DNA from: Gemmatimonadaceae bacterium
GTDB taxonomy: Bacteria; Gemmatimonadota; Gemmatimonadetes; Gemmatimonadales; Gemmatimonadaceae
Assembly: GCA_037721215.1 (NCBI GenBank)
Contig: JBBJNV010000007.1
Coordinates: 1-64,000, forward strand
Direction: 5' to 3'
Length of the DNA stretch: 64,000 bases
The translations under genes were made by a program, and so were the position numbers. Below the pieces are notes generated by a model. It had not been told where the DNA came from. It was given only the letters and a program-made list of their open reading frames with translations, and ran no database searches. Position 1 is the first letter of the stretch. The number at the start of each line of letters is the position of its first letter. This document shows positions 9,152 to 50,729 of the stretch, one piece after another.

Positions 9152-10366
9152 ATGGACGATTCACTGTATTTCACCGAACAGCACATCGCCGTTCGTGACA
9201 TGGTGCGCGAATTCGCGCGCGACGAAGTTGCTCCGGTAGCAGCAAAATTCGATGCCTCGCAGGATTTTCCCTGGGAGAACATCCAGAAGATGGGCGAGCT
9301 GGGGTTGCTCGGAATCCCCTGGCCCGAAGAAATGGGTGGCGCCGGACTCGATCTGCTGAGCTACATGATTGCGATCCACGAGATGTCGAAGGTCGATGCA
9401 TCGCACGGGATAACGATATCAGCGCACACCACTCTGGGTACGTCCCCGATAGTCAATTTCGGTACGGCCGAACAAAAGGAGCGATTCGTACCTCTTCTCG
9501 CGTCCGGCAGTGTTCTGGGTGGCTTCGGACTCACCGAGCCTTCGGCGGGTAGCGATGCCGCGGGGACACGTACCACCGCCGTGCGCCGGAACGGTCATTT
9601 CGTCCTCAACGGGTCCAAAATCTTCATAACTCATGGTGGCGTTGGCGAGATTTTCGTCGTCACTGCCGTGACTGACCCATCCGCGGGAACGAAAGGCATC
9701 AGCTCGTTCATTCTCACGAAGCACGCCGATTTGTCGACTCGCGCTGCATCGACGATAGGGCACGACCCGTCGCTGCCGGACATGCGCGGCTTCAGGGCGG
9801 GAAAGAAGGAAGACAAACTCGGCTGGCGAGCGTCGGACACGCGCGAGCTGATTTTCGAAGACGTCGAAGTGCCCGAGGAAAACCTGCTCGGCGCTGAGGG
9901 AATGGGGTTCATCAATTTCATGCAGACACTCGATTCCGGACGCGTTGGAATCGCCGCACTGTCGCTTGGAATCGCGGAAGGCGCCTTTGAGCAGTCACTC
10001 AGGTACGCCAGCGAGAGGAAGCAGTTCGGTCAGGCGATCGCGAGCTTCCAGGGAATTCAGTTCCAGCTGGCCGACATGGCGACCGAAATCGAAGCAGGGA
10101 AGCATCTCCTGTATCATGCCGCCTGGCTGGCGCAGCACCGGAAACCATTCGGAAAGGAGGCTGCCATTGCCAAGCTCTTCTGCTCCGAACTGGCGATGCG
10201 CACTACGATCAAGGCCATACAGATCCATGGCGGATACGGTTATACCAAGGACTATCCGGTCGAAAGAATGATGCGTGACGCCAAAATCTGCGAGATTGGC
10301 GAAGGAACATCGGAGATTCAGCGGATTGTGATCGCGCGGCACCTGTTACGGGGTATGCTCGATTGA
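9152..10366 (+). CDS. Acyl-CoA dehydrogenase
   Basis: 404 residues. FAD-dependent alpha,beta-desaturation of acyl-CoA, passing electrons to electron-transfer flavoprotein. The fold is complete: [20 protein letters not shown] at the N-terminus, [13 protein letters not shown] flavin-contact motif, [16 protein letters not shown], and the catalytic-base region [18 protein letters not shown] near the C-terminus with Glu in the usual short-chain/butyryl position. There is an insert of about 20 residues between the [10 protein letters not shown] and GKKEDKLG segments. Chain-length preference is not predictable. Co-transcribed with recQ by position and overlapping the next gene by 4 bp (TTGA). Confidence 0.93.
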
Positions 10367-46595: not shown

Positions 46596-48509
46596 GTGGA
46601 GCTGAACGCACGCACGCCCGGCGGGCCGCTCGAGAAGAAGTGGGATCGTCATCGCTTCGAGATGCGGCTGGTCAATCCGGCTAACAAGCGGAAGTACGAG
46701 ATCGTCGTCGTCGGCTCCGGTCTTGGCGGCGCAGCCGCGGCCGCGACGCTTGCCGAGCTTGGCTACAAAGTCAGGTGTTTCTGCTTTCAGGATTCCCCGC
46801 GACGCGCGCACAGCATTGCGGCTCAGGGCGGCATCAACGCCGCCAAGAATTATCAGAACGACGGTGACAGCATCTACCGGCTGTTCTACGACACGATCAA
46901 AGGCGGGGATTTCCGCGCGCGGGAGGCAAACGTCTACCGCCTCGCCGAGATCAGCGTCAACATCATCGATCAGTGCGTTGCGCAGGGGGTGCCGTTCGCG
47001 CGGGAATACGGCGGGCTGCTGGCCAATCGTTCGTTTGGTGGGGCGCAGGTCTCGAGAACTTTTTATGCACGCGGTCAGACCGGCCAGCAGTTGCTGCTTG
47101 GCGCATATCAGGCACTGGAGCGACAGATCGCGCTTGGCAATGTCGAGATGCATACGCGCTCGGAGATGCTCGACCTCGTGGTTGTGGATGGCAAGGCGCG
47201 CGGGATCGTCACGCGCGACCTCGTGAGCGGCAAGATTGAGTCGCATGTCGCCGATGCGGTGGTGCTCGGTACTGGTGGATATGGCAACGTTTTCTACCTC
47301 TCCACCAACGCAAAGGGCTCAAACGCCACCGCCATCTGGCGCGCGTACAAGCGGGGTGCAGCGTTCGCGAATCCGTGTTTCACGCAGATCCATCCGACCT
47401 GTATCCCCGTCAGCGGCGAATATCAGTCAAAGCTCACGCTGATGAGTGAATCGCTGCGCAATGACGGCCGCGTGTGGGTGCCCCTGGCGGTGGGCGACAA
47501 GCGGCCCCCACGCGAGATTCCGGAGGCAGAGCGCGACTACTTTCTCGAACGCAAGTATCCGAGCTTCGGCAACCTTGCCCCTCGTGATATCGCATCGCGC
47601 GGGGCGAAGGAAGTTTGCGATGAGGGCCGCGGTGTTGGAGAAAGCGGCCTCGGGGTGTATCTCGATTTTGCCGACGCAATCGAGCGGCTCGGTGAAAAGG
47701 TCATCCGGGAACGCTACGGGAATCTTTTCGAGATGTATCAGCGAATCACGGACGAGAATCCCTACACGCTCCCCATGCGTATATACCCGGCGGTTCACTA
47801 CACAATGGGCGGGTTGTGGGTCGACTATAATCTGATGAGCACCGTTGAAGGTCTGCACGTGATTGGCGAAGCGAATTTTTCCGATCATGGTGCCAACCGG
47901 CTGGGCGCAAGCGCGTTGATGCAGGGTCTGGCGGACGGTTACTTCGTTCTGCCCAATACCATTGGTGATTACCTCGCGTCCAGCAGGCCGTCGAAACTCG
48001 ACTCGACGCATCCCGCGTTCCGCGAAGCCGAAGCCGGAGTGGCGGAGCGCACGGAAAAGTTCCTGACGATTGGCGGAAAGCGGACGGTGGATTCTTTTCA
48101 TCGTGAGCTTGGCAGGATCATGTGGGATTCCTGCGGTATGGCCCGCAACGACGCCGGCCTGCGAAAAGCACTCGAGCTCATCCCGGAATTACGGGCTGAA
48201 TTCTGGCGAAACGTGAATGTTCCCGGAAGCGATGCGCAACTCAATCAGGCTCTCGAAAAGGCGGGACGAGTTGCTGATTTTCTCGAGCTTTCCGAGCTCA
48301 TGTGCAGAGACGCTCTTCATCGCACTGAATCCTGCGGCGGACATTTTCGAGAGGAAAGCCAGACCCCTGACGGCGAGGCGCTCCGGAACGATGAGGATTT
48401 CACTTATGTAGCAGCCTGGGAATACGCGGGCGCGGACAGGGAGCCGATCCTCAATCGCGAGCCACTCGTGTTCGAAAATGTGAAGCTGTCGCAACGGAGC
48501 TACAAGTGA
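46596..48509 (+). CDS. sdhA: Succinate dehydrogenase flavoprotein subunit
   Basis: 637 residues, GTG start. FAD-binding GxGxxG in [20 protein letters not shown]; the His that binds FAD covalently is His72 in [16 protein letters not shown]. Substrate-site residues occur in [12 protein letters not shown] and [12 protein letters not shown], and the capping/active-site region [19 protein letters not shown] is present. It is about 50 residues longer than E. coli SdhA and carries a GTG start with basic lead ([19 protein letters not shown]), as in type B fumarate reductase/SDH flavoproteins of Bacteroidota. Overlaps sdhB by 4 bp. Confidence 0.95.
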
Positions 48510-49252
48510 TGCACCTCAAGCTCCGAATCTGGAGACAGGAGAACGCGGGCAGTCGTGGGGCCCTGGTTGACTACGATGCACCGGACATCAGTCCTGACAT
48601 GTCGTTTCTGGAGATGCTCGACGTGTTGAATGAGAGGCTGACCGTGGAGGGCGGAAACCCGATAGCGTTCGATCACGACTGCCGCGAGGGAATCTGTGGG
48701 TCGTGCTCGCTGATGATAAACGGGGCTGCTCACGGACCGATGAAGGGAACCGCCACATGTCAGTTGCACATGAGAAGCTTTGCCGACGGCGATACGATCG
48801 TCATTGAACCGTGGCGAGCCAAAGCATTCCCGGTTATTCGCGACCTGGTGGTGAACAGGGAAGCGCTCGACCGGATCATTCAGGCAGGTGGCTTCGTGAG
48901 TGCGTCAACCGGCGGCGCACAGGATGCGAACGAAATTCTGATCGGCAAGACTTCTGCTGACGCTGCAATGGATGCCGCGTCCTGCATTGGTTGTGGTGCG
49001 TGCGTGGCCGCATGCCCCAACGCCTCGGCTTCACTCTTCACGGCGTCAAAGATCAGCCACCTCGGGCACCTGCCGCAGGGTCAACCCGAGAGACATCGGC
49101 GCGTCATCTCGATGGTTGCACAGATGGACCTCGAAACGTTCGGAAGCTGCACATTATTTGGCGAGTGCCAGGAAGCTTGTCCGAAGGAGATCAGTATTGA
49201 CACCATTTCGCGAATGAACAGGGACTTCATTCGAGCAGGCCTGCACGGCTGA
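48506..49252 (+). CDS. sdhB: Succinate dehydrogenase iron-sulfur subunit
   Basis: 248 residues; starts at GTG 48506 or the adjacent ATG 48509. N-terminal ferredoxin domain binds 2Fe-2S through [17 protein letters not shown] plus a later Cys in [12 protein letters not shown]. The C-terminal domain has 4Fe-4S and 3Fe-4S ligand sets: [18 protein letters not shown] and [20 protein letters not shown]. The C-terminal set matches the fumarate-reductase-like type B subunit. Last gene of mdh-sdhCAB; an 8-bp hairpin lies after the stop. Confidence 0.95.
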
Positions 49253-49287: not shown

Positions 49288-49344
49288 TCGTCGAGGGTGC
49301 AGTAGCCGACATCCACATGCATGAACGCTCTTCCATGCGGAGTC

Positions 49345-49434
49345 GCGATAAGGGCAAACCCGTCGAAAGGCGGGGACGCAAAGCTACGAGGCTAACGTCC
49401 GCGAAAGCACGCAGACAATGCCAGTCGAGCTACC
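49345..49434 (+). ncRNA. Cyclic di-GMP-I (GEMM-I) riboswitch
   Basis: The aptamer is recognisable from its invariant core: AGGGCAAACC at 49351-49360, GAAA tetraloop at 49365-49368, GGGACGCAAAGC at 49372-49383 and GAGGCTAA at 49388-49395. Then comes a second arm (49396-49417) and the closing block ATGCCAGTCGAGCTACC at 49418-49434. These match the consensus order of GEMM-I, including the tetraloop and receptor pair in P2. GEMM-I elements commonly control surface, motility or extracellular matrix genes. The gene it controls here is the damaged PKD-domain protein directly downstream. Confidence 0.85.
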
Positions 49435-49437
49435 AAA

Positions 49438-50129
49438 CTAAATTCAACGAACAGGCTCCTGCGCACAAATACCCTCGCAGCGCCAACCACTCCACCACCG
49501 CCACCACCCCCGCCGCCGGCACCACCACCACCACCACCGCCACCGCCGCCTGTCAACACTGCGCCCGTGGCCAACTTCACCTGGAGCTGCAGTGGCCTGA
49601 CGTGCAACCTCAACGGATCGAGTTCGACCGATGATGGTCAGATTGTCTCCTACAACTGGAACGTCGGGAAGTCAGCCGGTCCGACGGCGACGGGGCAGGT
49701 CGTATCCGCCACGTATCCGCACGAGGGAAACAGGGTTGTGGTCCTCACGGTGACCGACAACGCAGGAAACAGCAGTTGTGTAACGAAAACAATAGTTGTC
49801 GGTGGGGGCTGTAGTGCCGCCGCCTCCGCCTCCGCCTAACGCGCCACCCGGCTGCGAACTTCACCTGGAGCTGTACAGGCCTGACATGCACACTCGACGC
49901 ATCCAGCTCGACCGACGACGTGCAGGTTGTCTCCTACACCTGGAACCTCGGGCGGTCACCGGATCCGACTACCTCAGGCAAGGTCGTTAGCGCCACCTAC
50001 CCGCACAGTGGTAACCGCGTCGTCACCCTGACGGTGAACGAGGCTAACGCCTGCGTGAACGCGCAGACCACGACAGTCGAGTTACCGAACGAAACACACG
50101 GAGGAATCATATTGTTGCCTGGGAGGGGA
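49438..50129 (+). pseudogene. Proline-rich tandem PKD-domain surface protein, start-less and frameshifted
   Basis: Encodes a poly-proline stretch (about 49490-49555) then a PKD domain (PVANFTWSCSGLTCNLNGSS, NWNVGKSAGPTATGQVVSAT), a second short proline stretch, and a second PKD domain (FTWSCTGLTCTLDASSSTDD, YTWNLGRSPDPTTSGKVVSA). The two domains are near copies. The frame changes twice: frame 1 to 2 near 49805, and 2 to 0 near 49850. In frame 1 there is no ATG, GTG or TTG between a TAA at 49393 and the PKD domain, so the start and any signal peptide are missing. Frame 0 runs on antisense into dcd, so the normal end is gone too. Probably a decayed c-di-GMP-controlled surface protein, though the low-complexity tracts could also hide assembly errors. 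Confidence 0.75.
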
Positions 50130-50150
50130 TCGATGGCGCCACGCCATCGA
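50130..50150. terminator. Hairpin between PKD remnant and dcd
   Basis: Perfect 9-bp stem TCGATGGCG / CGCCATCGA with a 3-base loop, flanked by a second stem GGGGA / TCCCC. It lies between convergent reading directions and 25 bp beyond the dcd stop, so it may end the dcd transcript, although no T-run follows on that strand. Confidence 0.4.
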
Positions 50151-50174
50151 CGTGCTTCCCCGGCGCTTTGGTTC

Positions 50175-50729
50175 CTAAAGTTTCGGGAGAGTTACCCCGG
50201 TCTGCCCCTGATACTTTCCCTTCTTGTCCTTGTAGGAAACGAGGGGTTCCTCATCGCCCTTGAAAAACAAAACCTGCGCGATACCCTCGTTGGCGTAAAT
50301 CTTCGCGGGCAGCGGAGTTGTGTTGGATATCTCCAGTGTTACGTAACCTTCCCACTCCGGCTCGAGCGGGGTTACGTTCGTGATGATCCCGCAGCGCGCG
50401 TATGTGGATTTACCGACCGTAACCGTAAGCACATTCCGGGGGATCCGGAAATACTCCACCGATCTTGCGAGCGCGAAAGAATTGGGGGGCACGATACAGA
50501 CTTCACCTTCGTACTCGACAAAGGACTTCGGATCGAAGGCCTTCGGATCCACTATCGAGTTCAGGACATTGGTGAAGATGCGAAACTCGTTCGCCACCCT
50601 CATGTCGTATCCGTAGGAGCTGACGCCATACGAGATTACGCCGGAGCGCACCTGACTGCTCTCGAATGGATCGATCATGCCATGCAACGAGGCCATCTCG
50701 GTGATCCAGCGATCTGATTGGATTGACAT
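50175..50729 (-). CDS. dcd: dCTP deaminase
   Basis: 184 residues from ATG at 50729; upstream in-frame starts would add a basic tail not seen in the family. Trimeric enzyme making dUTP (or dUMP) from dCTP. Motifs: [38 protein letters not shown] equivalent to the nucleotide-binding GRSSxARLG segment, and the catalytic Glu in [20 protein letters not shown]. The C-terminal tail [12 protein letters not shown] covers the active site in relatives. Divergent from nuoA across 170 bp. Confidence 0.93.

Follow-up and report, generated by a model that had tools for sequence, protein, structure and literature searches.

The locus lies between sdhB and the convergent dcd in the window, by which we mean the whole 64,000-nucleotide stretch of DNA that was analyzed. 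The best named matches to sdhB were Gemmatimonadales and Gemmatimonadaceae metagenome assemblies, and the genome was therefore placed in Gemmatimonadales. A scan of genome contigs with sdhB returned relatives at 77% or less only, and no closer copy of the locus. The features identified are presented in Table 1.

Table 1. Features of the sdhB-dcd locus in the window, with the evidence for each.
Feature	Position	Strand	Evidence or remark
sdhB, upstream neighbour, intact	48506..49252	+	
Altered remnant (putative) of the CGCTCCTCC..ATGGAGG element found immediately 5' of the aptamer in intact relatives, a proposed anti-ribosome-site element	49326..49342	+	Window CGCTCTTCCATGCGGAG compared with L065/L066 upstream sequence and folds; weak alone
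Complete GEMM-I aptamer	49343..49437	+	RF01051, 81.7 bits; no ribosome site or start codon behind it now
Deletion joint	49438..49446	+	Leader similarity to about 49442, S8-tail similarity from about 49445
Last codons of S8 domain (S-T-N-R-L-L-R-T-N-T)	49445..49476	+	Compared with SPNRLLRVNV of L066 and with L072 DNA
First proline tract (linker)	49486..49557	+	Direct reading; proline/alanine linker at the equivalent place in L065, L066 and L072
PKD1	49567..49803	+	PKD_4, 48.5 bits (cut-off 27)
Second proline tract	49804..49853	+	ORF table; frame unlike either PKD repeat (two frame changes)
PKD2, cut ahead of its last strand	49854..50041	+	PKD_4, 33.6 bits without tail; 75% identical to PKD1 over 188 nt
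3' half of a second GEMM-I leader, including GGAGG and start region	50038..50114	+	Profile match, 24.5 bits; joined to PKD2 at a shared ACGA
dcd, convergent neighbour, intact	50175..50729	-	

The GEMM-I (c-di-GMP-I) aptamer reported in the first-pass annotation was borne out by an Rfam covariance search, in which it spanned all 87 RF01051 model positions and scored 81.7 bits against a gathering score of 35. It was the sole RF01051 match in a search of the whole genome, and as its score is still among the highest in its order, any decay would be recent. The unpaired base of the GGGC core is G in c-di-GMP binders and A in cGAMP binders; in the window aptamer it is G. Of 50 near-invariant positions 46 were kept, and the four departures, compared with zero to three in the other 29 aptamers (leave-one-out counts), may represent early drift, although this is a weak sign on its own. 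No terminator-like site, and no promoter-like site in a scan for sigma-70-type promoters, was found at the locus beyond chance. While the aptamer is a full-length member of its class, and in relatives precedes genes for secreted proteins, the window differs in that the expression platform and its link to a gene are gone: the coding remains have neither a ribosome site nor a start ahead of them, both of which are present in the intact loci L065 and L066 described below, and half a leader is found some 600 bases downstream. Judged by its sequence, the element would be a c-di-GMP-I aptamer but not a working riboswitch, and appears to be an orphan, possibly starting to drift.

With respect to the coding remains, the features described earlier, namely the proline tracts, the pair of PKD repeats and both changes of frame, were all recovered using PKD_4 scores and the ORF table, and the lack of a normal start was confirmed, with no ATG, GTG or TTG in the PKD1 frame from the aptamer to the first proline tract. 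Each of PKD1, the second proline tract and PKD2 is in a frame of its own, and both repeats exceed the Pfam PKD_4 cut-off. As would be expected for formerly coding sequence, the differences between the repeats were distributed 12, 11 and 24 over codon positions 1, 2 and 3. The frame changes are local, since sdhA, sdhB, dcd and nuoA are uninterrupted. The PKD2 frame remains open from 49854 to 50717 (+), through the second leader and across the antisense of dcd, for almost 290 codons; this is probably a matter of composition and not a gene. Two C-terminal PKD domains are thus present, and of the S8 catalytic domain, complete in L065 and L066, about 10 residues of the end remain. The locus would be classed as a pseudogene of the S8 subtilase-PKD family and not as a member of it.

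An intact gene adjoins sdhB in G005 (L065) and dcd in G015 (L066), both of the same genus as the window genome. Its order is aptamer, ribosome site, signal, I9 propeptide, S8 subtilase, linker and PKD; in both loci the GEMM-I aptamer is followed by GGAGGAG with a start codon about 20 bases on, and then by a protein of about 515-545 residues with an I9 propeptide, an S8 subtilase domain, a proline/alanine-rich linker and one PKD domain, the N-terminus of which looks like a lipoprotein signal. In no relative were the two flanks found together with the intact gene on one stretch, as the G005 contig ends after the PKD domain and the gene upstream in G015 is malate-dehydrogenase-like and not sdhB. 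The product had been expected to be adhesin-like; in the relatives it is instead a subtilase (I9, S8 and PKD), a secreted protease. S8-PKD proteins are a known architecture (PMC2605481). The intact relatives carry I9, S8 and PKD, of which the window retains no more than the end of S8 and two PKD repeats, their frames disrupted.

The aptamer and the coding remains meet at a single, clean joint. Beyond it, the translated residues correspond to those that end the S8 domain of L066, and L072 DNA is also close. Compared with L066 about 1.2 kb is lost, from about 5 bases past the aptamer to the last S8 codons, and with it the signal, propeptide and catalytic domain as well as the ribosome site and start. 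The proposal in the first-pass annotation that an internal deletion brought a longer protein's C-terminal tail up to the riboswitch, with decay afterwards, is well supported by this match and by the intact G005 and G015 genes.

A profile of 29 GEMM leaders, all from other genomes, matched the window twice, at the aptamer with 72.8 bits and at 50038-50114 with 24.5 bits and E 6.6e-7, the latter match covering model positions 44-116 and running beyond the aptamer into the start region. Similarity between PKD1 and PKD2 (75%) stops at 50041, and from 50038 the window resembles the 3' half of the aptamer (49386-49442) at 45 of 57 bases, with the next best stretch on either strand of the 64 kb reaching 30 of 57. 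Using a profile of the 3' half only, the fragment scored higher (22.8 bits) than the 3' half of the complete aptamer (15.5 bits). No further copy of the fragment besides the aptamer was found in the genome, and 18 relatives' loci and four other stretches of this genome (S8, PKD or sdhB-dcd) gave no such leader match except two true aptamers. A second full GEMM-I nearby was rejected, as only a sub-threshold 13.6-bit match at 50033-50090 (GGC variant) was obtained, consistent with a half. The fragment is followed by GGAGGAATCATATTG, which resembles the ribosome site and start of the relatives; this part alone gave no significant profile match, so that its identity rests on position and the GGAGG. 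Both window copies of the leader carry an A where 28 of the 29 relatives have G, which would fit a duplication within this lineage. The natural end of the coding region, previously taken to be lost in dcd, is indeed gone, but it was replaced by the second leader fragment; the end of dcd is at about 50175, on the opposite strand.

Loss of this gene at the same place was observed repeatedly. In G013 (L072) sdhB is followed by a DDE-superfamily (IS630-like) transposase gene (L072:1066-2184) and then by an S8 end and PKD only, an independent loss of the same gene. In G012 (L053) only a PKD end is present within the 240 bases between sdhB and dcd, and in G011, G008, G003, G017, G002, G014 and G004 no S8 or PKD match was found between sdhB and dcd on one stretch. 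These losses make the loss in the window unremarkable and a pure assembly error less likely. The rest of the genome did not yield the missing protease part: the S8 genes found on C35, C1 and C24 represent other paralogues, which lack PKD, and the one on C35, considered as a severed half because it lies near a contig end, terminates at a stop of its own. A further relative of the S8 proteases in this genome, G000:C24:10076-10663 (L176), is broken by a stop codon.

We therefore regard it as very probable that the locus is the decayed remnant of a c-di-GMP-riboswitch-controlled secreted S8 protease gene with C-terminal PKD, situated between sdhB and dcd, and a case of ordinary gene decay that is unusually readable. 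With respect to the order of events, we infer that a tandem duplication came about, probably via the short ACGA common to PKD2 and the aptamer; everything between a point just past the first aptamer and the S8 end would then have been lost in one deletion, and the body of the second copy in another, which spared the 3' half of its leader and the start region, and the two frame changes would have finished the loss. Relatives often carry S8 genes in tandem, with three consecutive ones in G028:C6, for instance; a tandem duplication of the leader-protease gene was seen in no relative.

An assembly artefact, in which one or two intact riboswitch-protease-PKD genes are present here and their repeated or proline-rich parts were skipped or garbled, is improbable. 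The region does contain repeats (two leaders, two PKDs and the proline tracts), intact genes exist in relatives and the assembly is unfinished, in 45 contigs. However, the joint links unlike sequences, the leader and the S8 end, and is no collapsed repeat; one repeat placed twice would not account for the leader halves, which disagree at 12 of 57 bases; and the locus is interior to a 143-kb contig, has intact neighbours and corresponds to a place of real losses in relatives. Assembly error is not needed to explain the locus. A reduced but working locus, in which the aptamer steers either an RNA that converges on dcd or a short PKD product with an unusual start, is very improbable: the high aptamer score and the well-preserved PKD repeats would agree with it, but not the two frame changes, the absence of both start codon and ribosome site ahead of the first proline tract, the excess of departures at near-invariant aptamer positions over those of the 29 relatives, or the lack of promoter- and terminator-like sites noted above.

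The origin of the PKD2 end was considered in two further ways. The leader-derived end adds 5.5 bits to the PKD score, compared with 10.7 bits for the true PKD1 end, and on account of this gain we leave a very slim chance that the 3' half of the riboswitch became coding, with the former aptamer writing the last PKD2 strand as a passable PKD end in a protein made now or formerly; the gain itself is taken as a probable coincidence in a low-complexity strand. Least probable of all is that 50038-50114 is an ordinary PKD end with a chance likeness to a leader, with one leader and one gene, for although its residues EANACVNAQTTTV fit the end of the PKD profile slightly, the identity to the aptamer far from matched elsewhere in the window, the E-value with a profile from other genomes, the PKD genes of relatives without such a match and the halt of PKD1-PKD2 similarity exactly where leader similarity starts all speak against it.

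In the relatives with the intact gene, L065 and L066, the aptamer is immediately preceded by the CGCTCCTCC..ATGGAGG element, and the AGGAGGAG of the gene follows it after 6 bases. In minimum-energy folds the partner of CUCCUCC was the neighbouring GGAGG in L065 but the ribosome site in L066, which would correspond to the two states expected of a translational switch. The CUCCUCC would thus pair with either the adjacent GGAGG or the GGAGGAG of the gene, and binding of c-di-GMP, by closing the base of the aptamer and drawing its flanks together, would probably favour CUCCUCC-GGAGGAG pairing and shut translation. We infer from this that c-di-GMP would be expected to switch the protease off in the relatives. 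The window has an altered 5' element and no longer a ribosome site, so that no regulated protein can follow, and on the sequence alone the remains would be incapable of yielding a regulated protease. ZmpI of Clostridioides difficile is a protease lowered by c-di-GMP via a type I riboswitch (PMC4591827). The relatives resemble it in placing a secreted protease under direct type I c-di-GMP riboswitch control; ZmpI differs in being a zinc metalloprotease, the riboswitch of which is reported to lower transcription, whereas translational control is what we propose here, for the relatives only.

At least one GEMM-I was present in 108 of 149 relatives. It lies directly upstream of a same-strand S8 gene, within about 210 bases of the match, in G005, G015, G038, G047, G049, G059, G072, G083 and G141, and the GEMM-I/S8-protease pairing thus occurs in at least nine genomes and two families of this order. 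From about two GEMM-I per 4-Mb genome we estimate that chance would produce far below one such case. In open-licence papers no report of GEMM-I in this phylum was found, and nothing on its pairing with PKD or subtilisin, so that the recurrent pairing in Gemmatimonadales is apparently unrecorded so far. It suggests control of extracellular proteolysis by c-di-GMP in Gemmatimonadales, and the relatives provide, in their CUCCUCC/GGAGGAG leader, a testable translational switch; in this respect the intact relatives are more useful than the window remnant itself. The window locus illustrates how a riboswitch can outlast its gene: its orphan aptamer passes Rfam easily, and automatic annotation would credit it with regulation of whatever lies downstream.

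Other arrangements of GEMM-I were also observed. Tandem same-strand pairs less than 100 bases apart occur in the sister family (G089:C3:4761-5007, G106:C246:724-995, G106:C176:43639-43909, G121:C77:47856-48131 and G148:C121:1952-2224), and these are possible two-aptamer switches. In G008:C197 aptamers at 9193-9281 (-) and 9582-9672 (+) stand back to back about 300 bases apart, with divergent genes. In L009, L013, L014, L015 and L028, of the same genus as the window genome, GEMM-I is followed almost at once by GAGGAG and then by a response-regulator-like gene; the ribosome site nearly overlaps the end of the aptamer, a leader design unlike that of the protease genes.
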